This document shows, piece after piece, positions 4,158 to 15,010 of a DNA stretch of 64,000 nt. This DNA comes from Agrobacterium rubi TR3 = NBRC 13261 (lineage in GTDB: Bacteria > Pseudomonadota > Alphaproteobacteria > Rhizobiales > Rhizobiaceae), in the NCBI RefSeq assembly GCF_000739935.1, contig NZ_BBJU01000017.1, positions 62,001-126,000 of the forward strand, written 5' to 3'. Position numbers and translations under genes: made by a program. Each line of letters opens with the position of its first letter. The first letter of the stretch is position 1. The notes under the pieces were generated by a model. It was not told the origin of the DNA. It was given only the letters and a program-made list of their open reading frames with translations, and made no database searches.

Positions 4158-4885
4158 ACGATCGGCGCTTGTCCATCACGCTCGATCAACCGTGTTTCGA
4201 CGGAGCCGACGATGATGCAGGTGGCCATATCAGCCATGTCGCTTGCGGCTTGTCCCAGCGGCACCACGCGCATGCGCTCATCCGCACGGCCTGCTGCGCG
4301 CCCGAAAATGACGGGCACGGTTTCAGGCAGATGGGCGCGCAACACATCGAACGCCGTCGCAAGCTGGTGAGGTCGGGCCTTGCTGACGGGATTGTAGAAG
4401 GCCATGACAAACCCGGCCTCAGCCGCAGCAATCAGTCTTTTTTCGATCAGCGACCATGGCTTGAGATTGTCCGACAGCGAAATAGCACAAAAATCATGCC
4501 CTAGAGGCGCACCCGCACGCGCCGCCACCGCCAGCATGGCCGTGACGCCGGGAACGACGTGGAAGTCGATATCGCGCCATTCGACGGGGCCGTTCTCGAT
4601 GGCCTCGCAGACGGCAGCGGCCATGGCGAACACACCGGGATCACCGCCCGAAACGACGCAAACTTTACCACCGGCAGCAGCGATGGTCAGCGCGGCCTGC
4701 GCCCGGGAAAGCTCTTCGCGATTGTCCGAGGCATGACGGCGTTGATGGGGCCCAAGCGCCAGACGGTCGAGATAGGGAATATAGCCGAAGAAATCGTCCG
4801 CCTCACGCACGGCGGCGTGTGCTTCCGGCGTGATCTGGTCCGGGCTACCGGGCCCAAGCCCGACAACCGTCAACCGCCCGCTCAT
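4124..4885 (-). CDS. cobJ: Precorrin-3B C17-methyltransferase
   Basis: A 253-residue tetrapyrrole methylase with an N-terminal VVGLGPGSPDQITPEA motif and the CobJ/CbiH segments FFGYIPYLDRL, VSGGDPGVFAMA and VVPGVTAMLA. It methylates C17 and drives ring contraction of precorrin-3B to precorrin-4. It is the last gene of the riboswitch-led operon (DUF1636-cobWNGHIJ). Its start overlaps the cobI stop by four bases and its 3' end overlaps cobK by 34 bases. It has normal length and no missing motif. Confidence 0.95.
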   Translation of the reverse strand: MSGRLTVVGLGPGSPDQITPEAHAAVREADDFFGYIPYLDRLALGPHQRRHASDNREELSRAQAALTIAAAGGKVCVVSGGDPGVFAMAAAVCEAIENGPVEWRDIDFHVVPGVTAMLAVAARAGAPLGHDFCAISLSDNLKPWSLIEKRLIAAAEAGFVMAFYNPVSKARPHQLATAFDVLRAHLPETVPVIFGRAAGRADERMRVVPLGQAASDMADMATCIIVGSVETRLIERDGQAPIVYSPRSSKRES

Positions 4886-5661
4886 GCCGTTTCACCGACA
4901 GGGCGATCTTTCCAGCCGGGAACGAGAACCAGCGAGAAATAGGGCGCGGGCGATGCATCGCGTTCGATGAGCCTCATGGCATGGCCATTTTCCATCGTGC
5001 CGCGTTCGACATAAAGCGCGCTGTGCAGCTTGCCTGCTTTTTCGAGCGCCCGGCAAATTTTCGGCAGGTTGCGCCCGACCTTCATGATCACGGCGCCATC
5101 GGTGCCGGACAGGCGTTCGGTCAATGTTTCCTCGCCCAGCGTCCCCGGCAACACGCTCAAGATATCGTCGCCCTGCACAAGCGGCAGACCCGCCATGGAC
5201 CAGCAACCGGACATGGCCGTGATACCGGCGACAACTTCCGCAGGGTAGGCCGGGGCCAGCCGCAGATGCAAGTGCATGTAGGAGCCGTAAAACAGCGGAT
5301 CACCTTCCGACAGCACCGCGACGCTGCGACCGGCATCCAGATGAACGGCGATATCGCGCGCCGACTGATCAAAGAAGGCCGCGATGGCGCCTCTGTAGTC
5401 GTCTCCATTCTTGTCACTCTCGACCGTGACGGGGTAGACCAGTGGCATTTCCAGCGTGCCGGGGCGGATGAAGCTTTCGACGATACCGCGTCCATTGCCC
5501 TTGCTACCCTTCTTGCAGAAGAAGGCGACGACATCGGCATTCTCGATAGCACGCACCGCTTTCAGCGTCAAAAGCTCGGGATCACCGGGGCCTGTGCCGA
5601 CACCGATCAGCTTGCCCTTCAGCACCGGCTGCGCCGCCGGATCGAACAAGGCCGCACTCAT
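4882..5661 (-). CDS. cobI: Precorrin-2 C20-methyltransferase
   Basis: A 259-residue methylase with GKLIGVGTGPGDPELLTLK near the N-terminus, followed by LSEGDPLFYGSYMHL and VVAGITAMSGC, as in CobI/CbiL. It adds the C20 methyl group to precorrin-2, the first dedicated step of the pathway present in this window. It lies between cobH and cobJ with four-base ATGA overlaps on both sides, so it is almost certainly cotranscribed and translationally coupled. The first 15 residues before the motif are normal for rhizobial forms. Confidence 0.95.
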   Translation of the reverse strand: MSAALFDPAAQPVLKGKLIGVGTGPGDPELLTLKAVRAIENADVVAFFCKKGSKGNGRGIVESFIRPGTLEMPLVYPVTVESDKNGDDYRGAIAAFFDQSARDIAVHLDAGRSVAVLSEGDPLFYGSYMHLHLRLAPAYPAEVVAGITAMSGCWSMAGLPLVQGDDILSVLPGTLGEETLTERLSGTDGAVIMKVGRNLPKICRALEKAGKLHSALYVERGTMENGHAMRLIERDASPAPYFSLVLVPGWKDRPVGETA

Positions 5662-6290
5662 AGCCCGGCCCTCGCAATGGCGTTGATGGCAGCCGCTGTC
5701 ATGGCAGAGCCACCCAGGCGGCCCTTGACGATGGCATAGGGTATGCCGAGCGGACTCTCCTCAAGCGCATCCTTGGATTCCGCCGCACCGACGAAACCGA
5801 CAGGCATGCCAATAATGGCGGCGGGGCGGGGAGCGCCTCGCTCCAGCATTTCCAGCAGATAAAAAAGCGCGGTGGGCGCGTTGCCTATGGCAACCAGCGC
5901 ACCTTCCATCTGGTCGACCCAGAGATCGAGCGCGGCTGCAGACCGGGTATTGCCGATCTGCTTGGCAAGGTCGGGCGTGCGCAGATCGCGCAGCGTGCAG
6001 ATTACCGGATTGCCAGCGGGCAACCGCGCATGTGTAACCCCATGCGCCACCATATTGGCATCGCACAGGATCGGCTTGCCAGCCAGAAGCGCGCCACGTG
6101 CGGCATCCACGAAGTCAGGCGAAAAACGGAAGTGCTGCGCGGCTTCCACCTGCCCGCAGGCGTGGATCATCCTGATAGCGATATCGGCCTGATCCGGCGT
6201 AAAAGCCGTCAGGTCCGCCTCTTCGCGGATCATCGCAAAGGAGCGCTCATAGATCGCGTTGCCATCGCGGATATAGTCGTATTCAGTCAT
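5658..6290 (-). CDS. cobH: Precorrin-8X methylmutase
   Basis: A 210-residue protein starting MTEYDYIRDGNAIYERSF, the typical CobH/CbiC start. His43 in MIHACGQVEAA matches the catalytic histidine that moves the methyl group from C11 to C12, giving hydrogenobyrinic acid. Other family segments are ILCDANMVAHGVT and IIGMPVGFVGAAESK. It lies between cobG and cobI, with four-base overlaps at both ends. Length and motifs are complete. Confidence 0.95.
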   Translation of the reverse strand: MTEYDYIRDGNAIYERSFAMIREEADLTAFTPDQADIAIRMIHACGQVEAAQHFRFSPDFVDAARGALLAGKPILCDANMVAHGVTHARLPAGNPVICTLRDLRTPDLAKQIGNTRSAAALDLWVDQMEGALVAIGNAPTALFYLLEMLERGAPRPAAIIGMPVGFVGAAESKDALEESPLGIPYAIVKGRLGGSAMTAAAINAIARAGL

Positions 6291-7690
6291 CTCGTATCCT
6301 GTCGGAGCGCCGCTACGATCCGCTCCTTGCCGAGACGGGCAAGCAGGGTGCGGGCATTTTCTCCGGGCTTATGTTCTTTTTCATATAATCGGGCAAGCCG
6401 CGAAAGTGCCGCCTTGCGGTCAGCGAGCGGCAAAACCGCCTGCGGTGTGTCGGAAACGCGACCTGAAAAGGTAAGGGCCAGCCCTTCGGACGAGCCCGCA
6501 AAGGCCAGTGTGGCAGGCGTTGGGTGCGCGCAACCCTTACCGCAGCCCGAAAGATGCAGCGTAAACGAGCCATCCAGCAAGGACGCACAGTCCGTCGCCG
6601 CATGTTCGGCTAGGTCTCGCGTGGAGATAACCCCCGAAGCGCAGGCCGGTTTTCCAGCGCAGACGGCGATGGAAGAGCGCGGATCATCGGCACCGGTCAC
6701 AAAACCGGCGTCCCGCGCATGATCGAGAAGGGCCCGGCATGCCTCATGGCTGCCGGTGAAAAACATGGCATGCGCTGGCCCGGGCCGCAAACGCTGTAGT
6801 CCCAGTGTCGAAGCATGGTGGCAAAGGGCAGCGAGCATGTCTGCGCCGATTTGCCCGAAGGCGGGCGCAACAACTGCTGCAAACACATCGTTCGAAAGGC
6901 GCATAATACCGTAGGGACGTGCGTTGTTACAACGGGCGACGGTAGTGGCATACGGAGCGTTGGCCCCCTTATCCGACCTTTCAGGCAAACGCCTCACGTC
7001 GACCAATCGACCCGCACATACGGCCCGTACCTGTTCAATATCCAGGTCACGACCGCGCGTATCAGAACCCCGTTCGGCAAGACACATCAGAAGATCAATC
7101 ACGCTATCGGCAACATGTTCCGTCCGCAGCAAACCCGCCTGCAACGCCTTATCTTCGGCGCCACCCAGCATGAGTTGCCAAAACACGTGATCGCTGACAC
7201 GAGTGGCCTTGAGCCTGATATCCGCAAGCAGATCACCCATGTCCACAAGACCACCGCCATCGACGATGACGGACAACTTCGCAGCCAGCTTTTCATGCAG
7301 TTGAAGCGCATCCGCTCGCGCGCATATCCGGCTTACGATATCGCGCGTATCGGCAATTTCCGTTTGGTCGATCCCGGTGAGGGGCGATGTTTCCACCGTC
7401 AATCCCTGCCGCAATGGCAGATCAAGAGCGAGAACATCGCGTTCCAGAGCCTCGGCGCTCTCAGCCGTCAGGCCACGAAATTGCAGCCCGCCCCGCGCGG
7501 TGATGTCCATCAGCCCGTTGCCGTGCTGGATTGCGAGGGCGCACAGCGCCTCCAGATCAGAGGGCGAGATAGGATCCGTGAAGGCGATGCGCGATAAAAG
7601 TCCGTCCCCCGTCTGCATCGGAGCCGACAGGGCCGGGCAAACGCCGCGACGCGTGAAAGGCTGGACATCCACAGGGCCGAAAGCACTCAT
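6287..7690 (-). CDS. cobG: Precorrin-3B synthase
   Basis: A 467-residue member of the nitrite/sulfite reductase fold. The first part has the ferredoxin-like repeat (RRGVCPALSAPMQTGDGLL). The C-terminal half carries four cysteines, two in VCAGKPACASG and two in LSGCGKGCAHP, the arrangement that binds the Fe-S cluster. CobG uses oxygen to hydroxylate C20 and form the gamma-lactone of precorrin-3B, so its presence marks the aerobic route. Its electron donor is not well defined in the family; the Cys-rich DUF1636 gene at the head of this operon is a candidate. It overlaps cobN and cobH by four bases each. Confidence 0.94.
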   Translation of the reverse strand: MSAFGPVDVQPFTRRGVCPALSAPMQTGDGLLSRIAFTDPISPSDLEALCALAIQHGNGLMDITARGGLQFRGLTAESAEALERDVLALDLPLRQGLTVETSPLTGIDQTEIADTRDIVSRICARADALQLHEKLAAKLSVIVDGGGLVDMGDLLADIRLKATRVSDHVFWQLMLGGAEDKALQAGLLRTEHVADSVIDLLMCLAERGSDTRGRDLDIEQVRAVCAGRLVDVRRLPERSDKGANAPYATTVARCNNARPYGIMRLSNDVFAAVVAPAFGQIGADMLAALCHHASTLGLQRLRPGPAHAMFFTGSHEACRALLDHARDAGFVTGADDPRSSIAVCAGKPACASGVISTRDLAEHAATDCASLLDGSFTLHLSGCGKGCAHPTPATLAFAGSSEGLALTFSGRVSDTPQAVLPLADRKAALSRLARLYEKEHKPGENARTLLARLGKERIVAALRQDTR

Positions 7691-10600
7691 GCCTCTACCC
7701 TCGCCGATTTCGGCGCAACGAGCATTTCCAGCTCTGCATCCACGGCATTGCGGCGGCTGTGCCAGAGGCCGCGGCGGCGGGCAGAGAGAAAACGCTGCGC
7801 CATCACCTCTGCCGCCTGCGGGTTTTCCCGTAGAATGAAATCTCTGATATCCTCATTGCCGAAATAGGCGTCGTAGACCGCTTCTATCAATGAGGACGAC
7901 ACCGCGTGAGTGGTCTCGGCAAAGCCGATCAGCCTGTCGACCGTCTCGGCAAATTCCGCAGCACCGCGCGGCCCGTGCCGCATCTGCCCGGCAATGAAGC
8001 GCGGATTGATGGCGCGGGCGCGCACCACGCGGGTAATGGCCTGCGCAATGGAACGGGCGCGGGGACGCGCGGGATCGGTCGTATCGAGCGCCACGACATC
8101 GGCGGATTGCCCAAGGGCCGCCTTGGCTGCCGCAAAGCCACCGATAAAGGCGACGTCGGACGAACCATCGAGCAGATCACGGCCCGGATCGTCGCCCGTA
8201 TGAACCAGAAGATCGGCCTTTTCCACTTGGCCTGCAAAGCTGGCATCGGCAAACACACCAAGCCCGTTCGCCCCGCCAAAAGCATGGCTTGCGGCGTCCA
8301 GATAGATCTGGCCCAGCTCTTCGCGCGCATCCCAGCGCCCGTTTGCCAGCTTTTCCTCGATGCCAGCACCGTAGGTGCCGGGTGCCGAACCGAAAATGCG
8401 GGCAGGGATACGGCCGAGGCTGGCGGCCTCTTCTCCCAAGGGGTTATCACCCGGTGATTCTTCACGGCGCGCAATGGCTTTTGCGGCAGCATCCAGCAGG
8501 GCAATCAGCGCCGGAAACATATCGCGGAACAGGCCGGAAATGCGGAATGTCACATCTACGCGGGGCCTTCCCAAAGCCGCTGGCGGCAGCACTTCGATGC
8601 CCGTGACGCGGCCCGTGCCTTGATCATAGATCGGTCGTGCGCCCATCAGGTGCAGCGCCTGGCCGACATCTTCGCCGCCATTGCGCAGAGAGGCCGAGCC
8701 CCAGAGATCGAAGACGATATTCCTCGGCCAATCGCCATGGCTTTGCAGATGGTGCCGCAAGACTTCTTCACCCGCCATGCGGCCCAGCTCGAAAGCGGTC
8801 GGGGTCGGCATGGTGCGCGGGTCGGCAGCGTAAAGATTACGCCCCGTCGGCAACACATCCAGCCGTCCGCGCGCTGGCGCACCAGATGGGCCGGGCGTAA
8901 TGTGCCGTCCGTTGAGAGCAGCCAACAAAGACACTTTTTCCGCTATCGCACTATTACGCCTGAAGACATCCGGCTCATCATCCGCGCAGCGACCGAACAC
9001 ATGCTGGCCGTCCTTGATCGCGAAATCCTTGAGATCGCAGAGAAACGCATCGATGCGTGACAGTGCGGTATCGGCATCATCCTGCGTGTCGATACCGGCA
9101 TCGGCTGCTAATCCCGTTTCCTGCGCCTTTTCGAAGATCAGTTTGGCCAACCGGTCGCGGCGGCGACGGTCCAAACCATCGGCCTGGGCATATTCGTCGA
9201 CAAGCTGTTCCAACGCCATCTGCTCCGACGAAAGCCCGGCATCGACCAAGACGGGCGGAATATGCCCGATGGTCACAGCCGCGATGCGCCGCTTCGCAAC
9301 CGCCGCTTCCCCCGGATTGGAGACGATGAAGGGATAGATCACGGGCAGTGAGCCGGTGACGATTTCAGGGAAACAGGCTTGCGATAGCGCAACGGTCTTA
9401 CCTGGCAGCCATTCAAGCGTCCCATGGGCGCCGACGTGAATGACGGCATGCGCCTCGAGGCTTTTCCGCATCCAGGCCCCGAAGGCGACCAGCGCATGCC
9501 GAGGGGGCAGGGCCGGGTCGTGATAATCCACCCGCCGGTTTTCGTTCCGACCACGATCAGGCGCAAGAGCAACTGTTACGGAGCCGAATCGAGCCGCGCG
9601 GAAATGGAAGACACCATCTTTAACGGCCTCATCGTTTTCTGCATGGCCCCACGTCTCATCCAAAGCCAGATTGGCAGTTTGGGGCAGGGCGCTGCGAAAC
9701 GCTGAATACTCGGCCAGCCCAAAAGCAGCCGTCTCGCTTTCAACGCGGTCGAGCAAAGCCCGAGGCGTTTCGGGAATATCGCCCACCGCATAACCGGCAT
9801 CGCGCAGATCGCGCAACATCTCCAGAACACTCTGCGGCACGTCCAGACCCACCGCATAACCGGTGCGCCCCGGTGCGGCGCCGGGATAATCCGGTATCAA
9901 AATAACAATCCGCCGCTCTGATGGAGCCGCGTTTTTCAGCCGCAGAAATGAAGAAATGCGTTCAGCGACCTGTTCGACACGATCAGACTCCGGGCAATGC
10001 ACCAGCCCGCGCCCACCTTCTGGATCGGGCTGCTTGAAAGAGATCGCCCCGGCGAGAATGCGTCCATCCAGCTCCGGCAACACCACATGCATGGCCAGAT
10101 CGGACGGATTGAGGCCGCGCATGTTGTCCGCCCAGCCGTCCCGCCGGGTGGTGGCCATGATGACCTGAAAGGTCGCGACACCCAGCCGGTCAAACAGGCT
10201 TCTGCCATCGTCGTCCGAATGGCTGGCAAAGGCCGTGGCCGCAATCATCGCCGCTGGCTTCAAAGTGACAAGAGTGTCTTCCAGAAACCGGATCGCATCT
10301 GAGTCCTTCAAACCGCTGACGAAGATCGGCAGCGGCGAAAATCCGCGTGAGTTCAACGCTTCATAAAGCGCATCGATGGGGGCGACGTCTGCCGCCATCA
10401 GCATGGAACGGTAAAACAGGATAGGAACAAGCGCCATGCCGTCTTCACGGCCATCCAGCGCTGCCGGAAGGTCAACCACGCCTTCACCAGGCCGGTAGAA
10501 CCCGCATTTGGGCAAAGGTTCAGCGACGACATCCGGCCAGGCGCCTTCTCGCGCAAACGCAGCAAGCAATCTCGCAACCCGGTCCATATTCTCCGGCCCG

Positions 10601-11037
10601 CCCTCGCGGAAGAACGATAGAATTCTGGACTGCGTCGGTAGATCGACGGTGGAGGCAACCTCAAGCTTTTCATCGCGCTCGCTGCATTCGCCGGGCAGAA
10701 GTACGAGCCTGATACCACGCCGACGCGCCATTCTCGACAGCTCGTCCACGCCGTATCGCCAGCGATCGGCACCACCGAGAATCCGGATAAGGATCAGCTT
10801 GGCGTGTTCCGCCGTCTTTTCGATCCACAGATCGACCGACATGGGATGGCGAAGTTCGGAGAGGTTGGCGGACACGAAGGACACCGAACCATCCGTGCTA
10901 CGCTGCCATCCGCGCTTCAGCCCCCCGAGGTCGCTGGCCGAAAAAGACAGCACCACCACATCCGCCTGACCCTGGTTGAGATCAACCGGCTCGATCAGGT
11001 CGTCCAGAGACGAGGATGTGGTGGCGAGGATGTGCAT
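7687..11037 (-). CDS. cobN: Cobaltochelatase subunit CobN
   Basis: A 1116-residue large subunit of the ATP-dependent cobaltochelatase that inserts cobalt into hydrogenobyrinic acid a,c-diamide together with CobS and CobT, which are not in this window. Family segments include VIHVGAHGTLEWLPGK, PVIYPFIVSNPGEA and GSAPGTYGAGIEE. The protein is somewhat shorter than the roughly 1270 residues of the classical Pseudomonas denitrificans form. The reading frame is continuous, however, and both the start (MHILATTSSSLDDLI) and the CobN C-terminal half are present, so I do not call it broken. It starts three bases after the cobW stop and overlaps cobG by four. Confidence 0.95.
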   Translation of the reverse strand: MHILATTSSSLDDLIEPVDLNQGQADVVVLSFSASDLGGLKRGWQRSTDGSVSFVSANLSELRHPMSVDLWIEKTAEHAKLILIRILGGADRWRYGVDELSRMARRRGIRLVLLPGECSERDEKLEVASTVDLPTQSRILSFFREGGPENMDRVARLLAAFAREGAWPDVVAEPLPKCGFYRPGEGVVDLPAALDGREDGMALVPILFYRSMLMAADVAPIDALYEALNSRGFSPLPIFVSGLKDSDAIRFLEDTLVTLKPAAMIAATAFASHSDDDGRSLFDRLGVATFQVIMATTRRDGWADNMRGLNPSDLAMHVVLPELDGRILAGAISFKQPDPEGGRGLVHCPESDRVEQVAERISSFLRLKNAAPSERRIVILIPDYPGAAPGRTGYAVGLDVPQSVLEMLRDLRDAGYAVGDIPETPRALLDRVESETAAFGLAEYSAFRSALPQTANLALDETWGHAENDEAVKDGVFHFRAARFGSVTVALAPDRGRNENRRVDYHDPALPPRHALVAFGAWMRKSLEAHAVIHVGAHGTLEWLPGKTVALSQACFPEIVTGSLPVIYPFIVSNPGEAAVAKRRIAAVTIGHIPPVLVDAGLSSEQMALEQLVDEYAQADGLDRRRRDRLAKLIFEKAQETGLAADAGIDTQDDADTALSRIDAFLCDLKDFAIKDGQHVFGRCADDEPDVFRRNSAIAEKVSLLAALNGRHITPGPSGAPARGRLDVLPTGRNLYAADPRTMPTPTAFELGRMAGEEVLRHHLQSHGDWPRNIVFDLWGSASLRNGGEDVGQALHLMGARPIYDQGTGRVTGIEVLPPAALGRPRVDVTFRISGLFRDMFPALIALLDAAAKAIARREESPGDNPLGEEAASLGRIPARIFGSAPGTYGAGIEEKLANGRWDAREELGQIYLDAASHAFGGANGLGVFADASFAGQVEKADLLVHTGDDPGRDLLDGSSDVAFIGGFAAAKAALGQSADVVALDTTDPARPRARSIAQAITRVVRARAINPRFIAGQMRHGPRGAAEFAETVDRLIGFAETTHAVSSSLIEAVYDAYFGNEDIRDFILRENPQAAEVMAQRFLSARRRGLWHSRRNAVDAELEMLVAPKSARVEA

Positions 11038-11040
11038 GGA

Positions 11041-12075
11041 TCAGGCAGCCAGCATCCGCTCGATTTTCGCGCGGTCGAGACCCTTTTCACCGATCACCAC
11101 CAGATGGCTGCGGCGCACCTCGCCTGCTGCCCATGGACGGTCGAAATAATGGTTGACGCGCGAGCCGACCGCCTGGACCTGCAACCGCATCGGCTTGGCG
11201 GACACTTCGACAAAACCCTTGATGCGCAGCACGTTTTCAGATGCTGCCGTTTCCGAGATACGCGCAGCCAAAGCCTCGGCGTCGGTGACGGCATCCAGTT
11301 CCACGACGAAGCTGTCGAACTCGTCGTGATCGTGGTCTTCTTCCTCATCGTGATGGGTGTGGCGGTTTTCGATATCCTCTTCCACCGCAAGGCCAAGGCC
11401 GATCAGAACGGCAGGATCAACCACGCCATTGGAGGCCACGACGATCTTCGCAGCCTTCGGCAGATGCGCGTTGATATGGGCCTTTGCGCGTTCAAGACCC
11501 GCTGCATCCAGCAAATCGCCTTTTGTGAGAACGATGAGGTCTGCGCAGGCAATCTGGTCTTCGAAGACCTCTTCGACCGGATCATCGTGATCCAGCGCCT
11601 CGTCGTTTTGGCGCTGAGCGGCCAGCGCTTCCAGATCATGCGACACCATGCCATCGGCCAGGGCGACACCATCGGCCACGGCCACCACCGCATCCACCGT
11701 CACTCGGCTTTTGATCGCGGGCCACTGGAAGGCCTGTACGAGTGGCTTCGGCAGAGCGAGGCCCGATGTTTCGATCAGAATATGCTCGACGCGTGGCTCG
11801 CGGCTCAGAATCTGCTCGATGGCGGGCTGGAAATCATCCGCCACCGTGCAGCAGATGCAGCCATTGGCCAATTCCACGATGTTTTCTTCCGGGCAGCTTT
11901 CGATGCCGCAGCCTTTCAGGATATCGCCATCAATGCCGACATCGCCAAACTCGTTGACGATGATGGCCAGCCGCTTGCCCTCGAGCTTTTCCAGAAGGCC
12001 GCGCAGAAGCGTGGTTTTGCCCGCGCCCAGAAAGCCGGTGATGATGGTGCAGGGAACGCGGTTGAGCGTGGTCAT
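11041..12075 (-). CDS. cobW: CobW, G3E-family GTPase and metallochaperone
   Basis: A 344-residue P-loop GTPase with Walker A GFLGAGKTTLL near residue 15, the metal-binding NGCICCTV (CxCC) motif near residue 70, and a His/Asp-rich stretch HTHHDEEEDHDHDEFD around residue 250. CobW proteins are thought to deliver cobalt to the aerobic cobaltochelatase. The start at 12075 has a GAGGAG ribosome site. The frame continues 72 codons upstream, but that part overlaps the DUF1636 gene in another frame. The ATG shares one base with the DUF1636 stop (TAATG). cobN follows after three bases, in line with a shared role in cobalt insertion. Confidence 0.95.
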   Translation of the reverse strand: MTTLNRVPCTIITGFLGAGKTTLLRGLLEKLEGKRLAIIVNEFGDVGIDGDILKGCGIESCPEENIVELANGCICCTVADDFQPAIEQILSREPRVEHILIETSGLALPKPLVQAFQWPAIKSRVTVDAVVAVADGVALADGMVSHDLEALAAQRQNDEALDHDDPVEEVFEDQIACADLIVLTKGDLLDAAGLERAKAHINAHLPKAAKIVVASNGVVDPAVLIGLGLAVEEDIENRHTHHDEEEDHDHDEFDSFVVELDAVTDAEALAARISETAASENVLRIKGFVEVSAKPMRLQVQAVGSRVNHYFDRPWAAGEVRRSHLVVIGEKGLDRAKIERMLAA

Positions 12076-12491
12076 TATGTCTCCTCGGTAAAATTCAAAG
12101 GGGGAATGCGGGCAACAAGGCCACGCTTTAAACTGTCGGGCCGTCCGCGCCATGGCATCAGGCCATCGGGTGCTGAAGACAACAGGCGCGCGCCGACCAG
12201 CAAGTCGGCAGCGTCGTCTTCGCTCAACGATCCGAACATGTAGGACCAGCCATCGGCGCTGCGCACCGCGGCACTCAAGCCACGCTTGCAATTGGCAAGG
12301 CAGTTGACGCTGCGTACATCGACACCTTCAGCCTGACCGAGTGCAACAGCAGCCTGCGCAAGGGTCGCACCGGTGCGAGGGTCCGCGTTCGGATCGGCTT
12401 CCGACCGGCAACTGCGGCAAACGTAAACCACGACGCCGGGCGCGGTGTCACGGTCCGTCTTTTCATTCAGGCTTGATGATGTCGATGTCAT
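12075..12491 (-). CDS. DUF1636 protein, probable thioredoxin-fold ferredoxin, first gene after the B12 riboswitch
   Basis: About 138 residues. Four cysteines are arranged C-x2-C-x35-C-x3-C (VCRSCRSE, then VNCLANCKRG), which resembles thioredoxin-like [2Fe-2S] ferredoxins; the DUF1636 assignment is from memory of the family. The C-terminal region contains YMFGSLSEDDAADLL. The start is uncertain. I use MTSTSSSLNEK (12491), but ATG at 12554 and GTG at 12602 are in frame and the ribosome site at 12491 is weak. It is the first gene downstream of the cobalamin riboswitch and overlaps cobW by one base. A redox or metal-handling role in cobalamin synthesis is inferred from this position. Confidence 0.8.
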   Translation of the reverse strand: MTSTSSSLNEKTDRDTAPGVVVYVCRSCRSEADPNADPRTGATLAQAAVALGQAEGVDVRSVNCLANCKRGLSAAVRSADGWSYMFGSLSEDDAADLLVGARLLSSAPDGLMPWRGRPDSLKRGLVARIPPLNFTEET

Positions 12492-12630
12492 ATCCAAGGG
12501 TATGGTTTCCGCGCCTTTGCAATGGTCTCGGGGTGCGGATATCGAAAACGGCATGCGGATCAACGCAACGCCATCGTTCGAACAACCGACTGACCGGAGC
12601 ACCCCGCCCGGCAGACGTTTTTCCTGAAAC

Positions 12631-12805
12631 GGCAGGTCTCCTGGCTTGCGGCTTCGACACCCTTGCGCCGCCTTCCCGGACTCATTCGTCCAGTGGCTTT
12701 CGGCGCGGGCTCACCGCTTACAGTTGCGGGGGCAGCCACGGGTTGGTTCGCACACGCGAATGGCACCGTGTTCCCTCTTAGCTTTTCCCGTTGCCGGAAA
12801 AAGAC
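12631..12805 (-). ncRNA. Cobalamin (AdoCbl-type) riboswitch
   Basis: Read on the minus strand, the conserved elements come in the right order: GGGAACACGGTGCC, GGCTGCCCCCGCAACTGTAA, GCCACTGG, CCGGGAAGGCGG and finally the B12 box AGCCAGGAGACCTGCC (ending at 12631). This is a near-textbook match to the cobalamin riboswitch. It lies upstream of DUF1636-cobWNGHIJ and should repress that operon when adenosylcobalamin is plentiful. About 140 bases separate the B12 box from the chosen DUF1636 start, enough for an expression platform. I did not fold that region, so the mechanism (terminator or sequestered ribosome site) is open. Confidence 0.95.
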
Positions 12806-12820
12806 CGTCAGTCCTTAACC

Positions 12821-12848
12821 CTTATGCCCTGCGGTGCTTTTGTGTCAA
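12821..12848 (-). promoter_or_regulatory. Predicted sigma-70 promoter of the riboswitch-cob operon
   Basis: On the minus strand a perfect TTGACA (12848-12843) is followed after 16 bases by CATAAG (12826-12821). This places transcription start about 10 bases before the first riboswitch element. Position and -35 box fit well; the -10 box is weak. Confidence 0.5.
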
Positions 12849-12931: not shown

Positions 12932-13549
12932 ATGACCCGTGACATAAGCGATAGCGAGGCCGAACGTCACCGCGCCAAGATGGTCAACCGCAAGGCGGTG
13001 CAGGATGCCGAAGTCTCGGAAAAGACCATCGAAAAAGGTCTGCTGATGATCAACACCGGCCCCGGCAAAGGCAAATCCACTGCTGCCTTCGGCTTGGCGC
13101 TGCGCATGCTGGGCACCGGCAGGCGTGTCGGCATCGTCCAGTTCATCAAGGGGGCTTGGTCGACCGGCGAGCAGGGGGCGTTGGCCCTGTTTGGCGACCG
13201 TGTCGAATGGCGTACCATGGGCGAAGGTTTCACGTGGGACACTCAGGATCTGAAGCGAGACGTCGCTGCTGCCACCAAGGCGTGGGAAGAGGCAAAGACG
13301 CTGATGGCCGATGAAACCATCGGTCTTGTGGTGCTTGATGAGCTCAACATCGCGCTGCGCTATGATTATCTGTCGTTGGAAGAGGTGGTCGAAACCCTGC
13401 AGAACCGCCGCGATGGCTTGCACGTCATCGTCACCGGTCGCAACGCCAAACAGCTGCTGATCGACGCCGCCGACATGGTGACGGAGATGACGCTGGTGAA
13501 ACACCACTTCAAGGCGGGCGTCAAAGCGCAGTCGGGCATCGAGTATTAA
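12932..13549 (+). CDS. cobO: Cob(I)yrinic acid a,c-diamide adenosyltransferase
   Basis: A 205-residue CobO/BtuR/CobA-type adenosyltransferase. Walker A is NTGPGKGKST at residues 41-50, followed by VQFIKGAWSTGEQGAL and LVVLDELNIALRYDYL. It transfers the 5'-deoxyadenosyl group of ATP to reduced cobalt. A good ribosome site (GGAAGGA) precedes the ATG. cobQ begins three bases after the stop, so the two are an operon. It is divergent from the riboswitch operon, with about 125 bases between them holding both promoters. Confidence 0.96.
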   Translation: MTRDISDSEAERHRAKMVNRKAVQDAEVSEKTIEKGLLMINTGPGKGKSTAAFGLALRMLGTGRRVGIVQFIKGAWSTGEQGALALFGDRVEWRTMGEGFTWDTQDLKRDVAAATKAWEEAKTLMADETIGLVVLDELNIALRYDYLSLEEVVETLQNRRDGLHVIVTGRNAKQLLIDAADMVTEMTLVKHHFKAGVKAQSGIEY

Positions 13550-13552
13550 TCC

Positions 13553-15010
13553 ATGACAGCGCGCGTTCTCATGTTTCAAGGCACCGGCTCCGATGTCGGC
13601 AAGTCGCTGATGGTGGCGGGGCTGGCGCGCGCTTTCGTGCGACGTGGCTTGTCCGTCATGCCGTTCAAGCCGCAAAACATGTCCAACAATGCCGCCGTCA
13701 CCGCCGATGGTGGGGAGATTGGCCGGGCGCAGGCATTGCAGGCGCGGGCGGCGGGCGTACCGCTTTCCGTCCACATGAACCCGGTGCTGCTCAAACCCCA
13801 GAGCGAGACGGGCGCGCAGGTGGTGGTGCAGGGCAAGGTCATCGGCAACGCCAAGGCCGCTGACTACCAGCACATGAAAGCCGGGTTGATGCCGCGCGTG
13901 CTGGAAAGTTTCGATCATCTCAAAACCATGGCTGATCTCGTATTGGTGGAAGGTGCGGGCAGTGCTTCGGAAGTCAATCTTCGTGCCAATGACATCGCCA
14001 ATATGGGCTTTGCCCGCGCAGCCAATGCCCCCGTGATCCTGATCGGCGATATCGACAGAGGCGGTGTGATTGCCAGTCTCGTCGGCACGAAGACGGTTCT
14101 GGATAGGGCGGACGCGGCGATGATCGAAGGCTTCATCGTCAATCGTTTCAGAGGCGATCCAAGTCTGTTCGATGAGGGCATGCGGATCATTTCGGAGAAG
14201 ACCGGCTGGAACCCGATTGGCCTCTTGCCGCATTTTGCCGATGCCAGCCGCCTGCCCGCTGAGGATGCTTTAGGGTTGAGTGGAGCTGGCGAAAGAAAGC
14301 CTGACGCGAAAATTCGGATCGCGGTTCCTATCCTGCCGCATATCTCCAACTTCGATGACCTTGATCCCTTGGAGGCCGAGCCGGACGTCGAGCTTGTCCG
14401 CGTACGCCAGGGAGACGTCATTCCGACAGATTGTACGCTGGTGCTGCTGTGCGGTTCCAAATCCACCATCGCCGATCTGACGGCGCTGAAACATGCTGGT
14501 CTCGACGTGGATATCAAAGCGCATGTGCGGCGTGGAGGCTATGTGCTTGGCGTGTGCGGCGGCTATCAGATGCTCGGGAAAACCGTGGCTGATCCAGAGG
14601 GCATCGAAGGCGCTCCCACCGCGATCGAAGGGCTTGGCTTGCTCGACGTGGACACCGTGCTGACGGGTGACAAACGGCTCGTTTCGGTAACCGGCCAGAG
14701 CTTTGATCAAATCTCCTTCTCCGGCTATGAAATGCATGTGGGCGTCACCGCCGGACCGGATGATATTCGCCCGTTCTCCACCATCGGCAACCACATCGAA
14801 GGCGCTATGTCCCCGAATGGACGCGTGTTTGGCACCTATATTCATGGCCTGTTTGCCGATGACCGCCAACGCAGCGCATGGTTAAAACGGCTGGGTGGGG
14901 AAAACTCGACGCTCCATTACGAGGAACAGGTGGATGCGGTTCTCGACCGGCTGGCCGACCATATGGAGCGTCATCTCGATCTCGATGCTCTCTTGGCTAT
15001 AGCACGATAG
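13553..15010 (+). CDS. cobQ: Cobyric acid synthase
   Basis: A 485-residue glutamine-dependent amidotransferase. The N-terminal domain is dethiobiotin-synthetase-like ([31 protein letters not shown]). The C-terminal domain is a class I glutaminase with the nucleophile in [13 protein letters not shown] near residue 340 and the catalytic His in TYIHGLF near residue 430. It amidates side chains b, d, e and g of adenosylcobyrinic diamide. It is cotranscribed with cobO. The last 14 bases overlap convergent cobD. Confidence 0.96.

Follow-up and report, generated by a model that had tools for sequence, protein, structure and literature searches.

The DUF1636 protein at the head of a cobalamin-regulated cob operon probably helps, as a redox protein, with the cobalt side of vitamin B12 and is probably not the private electron donor of CobG. 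Its gene lies in a window of 64,000 nucleotides from Agrobacterium rubi TR3 = NBRC 13261, the whole stretch of DNA analysed here. The evidence is good for membership of the family, for the homology-based fold, for the invariance of the four cysteines and for riboswitch control, the last in the window and in many relatives. Also well supported is that the surroundings of the gene link it to cobW, to corrinoid-type import and to late assembly, not to cobG. Passages of PMC4083273 indicate that for many B12 producers it is not settled what reduces cobalt ahead of adenosylation. A B12-controlled ferredoxin-like protein encoded with cobW and corrinoid-type importers is a testable candidate for that reductant, and attention shifts away from CobG, where the first-pass annotation had pointed.

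The DUF1636 gene of the window and its product

The gene is an ATG-start ORF of 138 aa on the minus strand (12075-12491). A cobalamin riboswitch (RF00174, 122.8 bits) was found upstream of it on the same strand (12614-12824), in the direction of transcription, which makes DUF1636 a member of the cobalamin-riboswitch regulon and the first gene behind the element, as had been proposed. The proposed coupling to cobW was also borne out, one base being common to the DUF1636 stop codon TAA (12077-12075) and the cobW ATG (12075-12073). The operon continues on the minus strand with cobW (11041-12075; Co(II) metallochaperone GTPase, TIGR02475, 548 bits, over the cut-off), cobN (7687-11037; large subunit of the cobaltochelatase), cobG (6287-7690; precorrin-3B synthase, TIGR02435, 277 bits, over the cut-off, in agreement with its earlier assignment to this operon), cobH (5658-6290; precorrin-8X methylmutase) and cobI (4882-5661; precorrin-2 C20-methyltransferase), the last two identified by profile matches. 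Divergent from the DUF1636 operon, on the plus strand, are cobO (12932-13549; corrinoid adenosyltransferase) and, after it, a cobQ-type cobyric acid synthase gene (13553-15010).

The protein matched PF07845 (DUF1636) over the whole model (1-117) with 97.2 bits (cut-off 31.6). At an E value of 0.001 this was its only Pfam match, PF01257 being absent from the list, and no NCBIfam model matched it at the same E value; PF01257 touches one cyanobacterial DUF1636 protein weakly (18.5 bits, below the cut-off of 24.8). The C-x2-C-x35-C-x3-C pattern was present exactly as first described, with cysteines 25, 28, 64 and 68. All four were invariant in the 26 aligned DUF1636 members, and the pattern was matched by 165 of 166 family ORFs, a set that includes duplicates because the loci overlap; the remaining one (L030) has four cysteines and a slightly shorter spacer. 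The start codon of the window ORF is uncertain: the first 20 residues were predicted with low confidence in the structural model, codon 21 is a GTG, and the Pfam domain begins at residue 22, versus residue 6-9 in three annotated relatives. The starts of the relatives in the alignment were picked by script and do not settle that of the window gene.

An AF2 model built from 26 aligned relatives (pLDDT 87.4, pTM 0.78) gave as its best fold match the entry 9JN8 of Rhodobacter capsulatus (E 9.1e-13; Z 16.8, 40% identity over 108 residues), which has the title thioredoxin-like ferredoxin and the molecule name ORF378. This entry was also the only clear sequence relative with a known structure (phmmer E 4.7e-22). 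The next matches were NfnB-type domains, the Aquifex thioredoxin-like ferredoxin (Z 9.3-9.5), Azotobacter FeSI (Z 8.3) and complex-I type domains. The window protein is thus predicted to adopt the thioredoxin-like ferredoxin fold, and the likeness to such ferredoxins seen in the first reading is supported both by the fold search and by a solved relative of that title. The same fold was predicted for DUF1636 from an R. capsulatus sequence in 2015, and the atypical cysteine was already remarked on, as passages of that paper indicate (PMC4520260); therefore, the ferredoxin half of the idea is not new. A literature search without most subscription papers returned no paper bearing the code 9JN8 and, among the top-ranked entries of its listings, none on DUF1636 function. 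By its kinship, DUF1636 may bind a [2Fe-2S] cluster that would be redox-active in the cell.

Gene neighbourhoods and riboswitches of the family

Relatives were collected from a class sample of 172 Alphaproteobacteria genomes and a phylum sample of 200 genomes, which share genomes and include drafts that may miss genes. As neighbours were called mostly by tblastn with the window proteins and a few others, weak relatives were missed among them. Among the 40 DUF1636 genes that passed the cut-off in the phylum sample, 23 were beside cobW, six headed an ABC/FecCD operon and four were with cobC/cobD; of the rest, one was with cobU, one with bluB, two were convergent with cbtA, one lay between methyltransferase-like genes and two had no such neighbour found. 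The 27 class-sample genes were distributed between cobW (11), bluB (1), importer genes (3), cbtA (2) and methyltransferase-like genes (1), and two more were immediately preceded by a riboswitch, of which one adjoined a COG0523 GTPase gene; for the other seven neither a B12 neighbour nor a riboswitch was found.

The order riboswitch, DUF1636, ABC ATPase and FecCD permease was read in L181 and L184-L188, with a Pfam check in L181, and in the class-sample importer loci (L135, L136 and L142) a TonB-receptor gene was present and DUF1636 was placed elsewhere in the set, with no riboswitch found in L135. In genome G039, which is without CbiC, a riboswitch precedes genes for a TonB receptor, DUF7676, FecCD, an ABC ATPase, DUF1636, cobC, cobQ and cobD. 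In L111-L114 and L005, cbtA, DUF1636 and cobW follow one another in this order on the same strand, and elsewhere DUF1636 adjoins cbtA, a COG0523 GTPase gene or znuA.

Riboswitches were detected upstream of relatives in L136, L137, L138, L142, L181, L182 and L184-L191, in the seven of seven cobW-type loci asked (L047, L050, L051, L065, L066, L070 and L090) and in four of eight plasmid loci (L220, L222, L224 and L226). RF00174 stayed below the threshold in the stretches examined of L135, L139-L141, L143, L144, L146, L147, L149, L219, L221 and L223, of the loci with cobC, cobD or cobU neighbours (L176, L178, L179, L180 and L183) and of L177. Together, the neighbouring genes and the riboswitches, seen across many genomes, support a part in B12 metabolism that involves redox chemistry or cobalt, as the first-pass annotation had offered for testing.

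The family extends beyond one class, as observed on plasmids; its cyanobacterial and betaproteobacterial members come from this collection only. Eight regions were read among the 60 records listed out of 81. The betaproteobacterium Methylibium sp. T29 carries cobW, cobN, ATPase and VWA genes, DUF1636, cbiB and later cob genes, and the cyanobacterium Trichormus variabilis has a riboswitch followed by DUF1636, a TonB receptor, a DUF7676-ferredoxin, a binding protein, FecCD and ABC genes. Sinorhizobium meliloti 1132 shows a riboswitch, DUF1636, ABC, binding-protein and FecCD genes; in Novosphingobium sp. a riboswitch and DUF1636 are followed by cobC, cobD and cobQ; in Leisingera sp. DUF1636 stands ahead of a riboswitch and cbtB-cbtA; the gene order of Paracoccus yeei is that of the window, including precorrin-3B synthase; and in Azospirillum lipoferum DUF1636 is without a B12 neighbour. 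In Gloeocapsopsis dulcis (L221), TonB, DUF7676 and DUF1636 genes occur, without a riboswitch, amid folE, hisI, thrS, cysS and copies of COG0523 GTPase genes, a set that presumably resembles a zinc-starvation (Zur) island.

Some further arrangements were observed. In L149 (4929-5950; genome G110), four bases at the DUF1636 start are shared with a bluB gene (TIGR02476, 263 bits), and a gene for a HerA-like helicase comes next, ahead of cobW. A divergent DUF1636 subfamily is convergent with cbtA in three genomes (L145, L148 and L182), with cbtA under its own cobalamin riboswitch. A DUF1636 clade in genomes G120 and G081 (L141 and L144) has an amidohydrolase gene beside it and no riboswitch; CobO and CbiC are both missing from G120, so that this branch may no longer take part in B12 metabolism, although both are present in G081. 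DUF7676 (PF24724) genes occur near TonB receptors and DUF1636 at L136:6248-6823, L137:3046-3630, L220:8642-9514 and L221:4247-5191, with a cobalamin riboswitch in three of these four loci. Two cyanobacterial DUF7676 proteins have a C-terminal thioredoxin-like ferredoxin domain, matched below the cut-off, and no paper mentioning DUF7676 or PF24724 was found in the search without most subscription papers.

A family tree (73 rows, 129 columns) was used only for the clustering of contexts. The contexts clustered on it with 15 label changes versus 28.1 in shuffles, near-copies aiding the clustering. Importer-first and cbtA-linked copies formed one supported group (99/97), apart from another (100/98) in which copies linked to cobC/cobD, to cobU and to importers were mixed; cobW-linked genes fell into neighbouring clades, with the window gene in a family-level clade. 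All 44 cobW-linked rows carried Trp82, a position that was Ala in all six importer-first rows, and the four cysteines never varied in the 71 rows compared.

Co-occurrence with CobG

In the class sample, DUF1636 was over the cut-off in 25 genomes, with three more weak matches, and CbiC was present in 55. The cobG gene was counted by its position next to CbiC (21 genomes), because some TIGR02435 matches are long frames (about 600 aa) that are not adjacent to CbiC and some real genes fall below the cut-off; TIGR02435 itself was over the cut-off in 18 of 172 genomes. In this count G056 and G105, with frames of about 600 residues elsewhere, were dropped and G070 was kept on a contig-end fragment. 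Such frames not next to CbiC (G056, G066, G070 and G105) scored 338-403 bits, over the cut-off and above the CobG of the window, and CobG annotation by TIGR02435 alone may mislead.

DUF1636 was present in 15 of the 21 genomes with cobG versus seven of the 34 CbiC genomes without it (Fisher p 2.6e-4, uncorrected for kinship). The association is real and favours a link to CobG, and the class-sample DUF1636 genes that adjoin cobW were all in cobG genomes (11/11). The 25 DUF1636 genomes of this sample contained CobO in 24 cases, CobW in 23, CbiC in 22 and CobG in 15; the value for CobO is not specific, because CobO tracks B12 biology generally (59/172). In a scan of named genomes, cobW directly followed DUF1636 in 80 of 80 loci, a linkage that is biased because cobW-type members had gone into the query and the best 80 of 565 relatives were kept. 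Among these best 80 of 565, cobG was detected by tblastn in 63, and there was room for it between cobN and cobH in 65 of the 68 loci carrying both.

The link breaks in both directions. In the phylum sample, DUF1636 was over the cut-off in 31 genomes, all of them Alphaproteobacteria, whereas CobG was found at E 1e-60 or better in 39 genomes, eight of them outside the class. None of these eight had DUF1636 over the cut-off, although cobH was beside the CobG match in all of them (G214 slightly below the CobG cut-off). Inside the class, no DUF1636 was found in nine cobG genomes, six from the class sample (G015, G026, G066, G157, G158 and G165) and three from the phylum sample (G207, G251 and G267); cobG beside cobH was read in the loci for G026, G066, G165, G207, G251 and G267, and for the remaining three its place was taken from coordinates. 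In the opposite direction, Phaeovulum veldkampii, Luteovulum azotoformans and Rhodobacter aestuarii keep DUF1636-cobW-cobN with a riboswitch ahead, and have no room for cobG between cobN and cobH (L051, L065 and L066). Genome-wide, TIGR02435 matched nothing in the first (G357) and gave only matches below the cut-off in the other two (G358 and G359). DUF1636 was also present in two genomes without CbiC that have import operons (G039 and G075). Thus, DUF1636 was neither present wherever CobG is used nor absent where there is no CobG, and the co-occurrence that the first-pass annotation had asked for holds as a statistical association only.

Among the three species without cobG, CobZ was over the cut-off only in R. 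aestuarii. In P. veldkampii and L. azotoformans cobN abuts cobH, no CobG or CobZ was over the cut-off genome-wide, and precorrin-3B synthase is unaccounted for in these assemblies, which may be incomplete. CobZ as a class-wide counterpart in species without cobG was set aside, the TIGR02485 tally being unused because the model also matches presumed tricarballylate-dehydrogenase-like proteins across the class.

Engineered Escherichia coli makes B12 with genes that, as listed in excerpts of PMC7895991 and PMC7689651, include cobG and no DUF1636 gene, and CobG is also used in E. coli strains without a listed DUF1636 gene in passages of PMC10449867. In strains listing cobG, cobR, cobW and cobNST, CobW reportedly obtains the Co(II) that goes into B12 (the same parts of PMC7895991 and PMC7689651). 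As these lists hold no DUF1636 gene, the protein would be at most a helper there. A dedicated role as the redox partner of CobG, as originally suggested, was rejected on co-occurrence, adjacency and the operons without cobG.

Candidate roles and known systems

The common theme of the DUF1636 homes is cobalt and corrinoid assimilation, that is, cobalt loading, corrinoid-like import and late assembly on adenosylated corrinoids, and ring contraction, the step of CobG, is absent from several of them. One redox step that occurs in de novo synthesis as well as in salvage is cobalt reduction ahead of adenosylation; therefore, we tentatively favour, at somewhat below an even chance, DUF1636 as a putative electron carrier for cobalt-corrinoid reduction in the steps common to de novo synthesis and salvage. 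Once cobalt had been inserted (CobW/CobNST) or a corrinoid imported, the cobalt, as Co(III) or Co(II), has to be brought towards Co(I) for CobO to adenosylate it. In this scheme a flavin reductase would supply DUF1636 with electrons, which DUF1636 would hand singly to the corrin on CobO or on its carrier, so that a corrinoid would be its target. In the relevant passages of PMC4083273, a one-electron step from Co(II) to Co(I) precedes adenosylation, a direct CobR orthologue is missing in many producers, and the Co2+/1+ midpoint is -450 mV.

Several points speak against such a carrier. For a [2Fe-2S] protein such a midpoint would be low, except with four-coordinate cobalt, and the cbtA, COG0523 GTPase and znuA neighbours fit cobalt or metal handling equally. 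Seven of the 27 class-sample genes have no B12 context, among them that of G120, a genome without CobO and CbiC, and the riboswitch stayed below the threshold in the loci with cobC, cobD or cobU neighbours and in L135 and L149. The window genome has seven flavin-reductase matches (PF01613) that could be alternative reductants. CobR was not distinguishable among the candidates by structure look-ups of three of these seven and of one from G207; one candidate was just under the RutF cut-off in the NCBIfam scan. In addition, E. coli strains supplied with cobR need no DUF1636 gene, to judge from sections of PMC7895991. A broader form of the carrier reading, which we regard as possible but doubtful, holds that DUF1636 is a B12-riboswitch-controlled ferredoxin family given over to the reduction of cobalt-corrinoids, which serves as a general adenosylation electron carrier in alphaproteobacteria and some cyanobacteria and betaproteobacteria, with paralogues split between synthesis (cobW type) and import (BtuFCD-like, as first gene), and that it fills the gap where CobR is missing.

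The main rival, because of the cbtA, COG0523 and ZnuA neighbours, is a cobalt-handling partner of CobW that would bind Co(II), control its passage or shield thiol sites, with the metal passed between importer, CobW and CobNST and electron transfer secondary or absent. The frequent place beside cobW (23/40 phylum-sample and 11/27 class-sample genes, and all of the best 80 of 565 relatives from the biased query) and the cbtA-DUF1636-cobW arrangement fit it, but electron carriers have this fold, the solved relative bears the title of a ferredoxin, and placement before cobC, cobD or cobU and with corrinoid-type importers needs no cobalt ions, so that we consider this role rather unlikely. FhuF-type proteins are [2Fe-2S] siderophore reductases, and by analogy DUF1636, partnered by DUF7676, might use reduction to free or trap a metal chelate or corrinoid after its import. 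Its repeated occurrence inside TonB/FecCD importer operons and the ferredoxin-like domain, matched below the cut-off, of DUF7676 in two cyanobacterial DUF1636 operons would agree with this; nevertheless, the commonest place of DUF1636 is with cobW-cobN in corrin-making genomes, and no DUF7676 gene was noticed, without a dedicated search, in the cob cluster of the window, which makes such a function improbable. Least probable of all, and very unlikely in our judgement, is an electron donor dedicated to CobG, or to precorrin-3B synthases generally: the enrichment in cobG genomes (kinship uncorrected), the room for cobG in most operons and the 11 cobW-adjoining genes all point its way, against which stand the CobG genomes without DUF1636 inside and outside the class, the three species that keep DUF1636-cobW-cobN without cobG (one CobZ match over the cut-off), the CbiC-less genomes with import operons, and CobG at work in E. 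coli without a listed DUF1636 gene (parts of PMC7895991 and PMC10449867).

Compared with known systems, the R. capsulatus protein of 9JN8 is, at 40% identity and Z 16.8, of the same type as the DUF1636 protein of the window, although, according to passages of PMC7242693, its source species uses CobZ and not CobG for precorrin-3B synthesis. The thioredoxin-like [2Fe-2S] ferredoxins (Aquifex 1F37/1M2A, Azotobacter FeSI 5ABR and NuoE-type domains) likewise have a thioredoxin-like fold, four cysteines and a C-x3-C in the second loop. In contrast, the widely spaced first cysteine pair of the canonical ferredoxins is absent from DUF1636, where this pair is C-x2-C; identity to the Aquifex and Azotobacter proteins is 15-18%, and the C-terminal segments G-x3-W-R-x-R-P and A-R-x-P-P of cobW-linked DUF1636 members set them apart from these ferredoxins. 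FhuF-type reductases are also small Fe-S proteins encoded with FecCD-type importers, in an iron context as opposed to the cobalt and corrinoid context of DUF1636. The step proposed for DUF1636, from Co(II) to Co(I) before adenosylation, is the one carried out by the corrin reductase CobR, but CobR, as described in parts of PMC4083273, is an FAD enzyme that uses NADH, whereas DUF1636 is a small cysteine protein that would only carry electrons.
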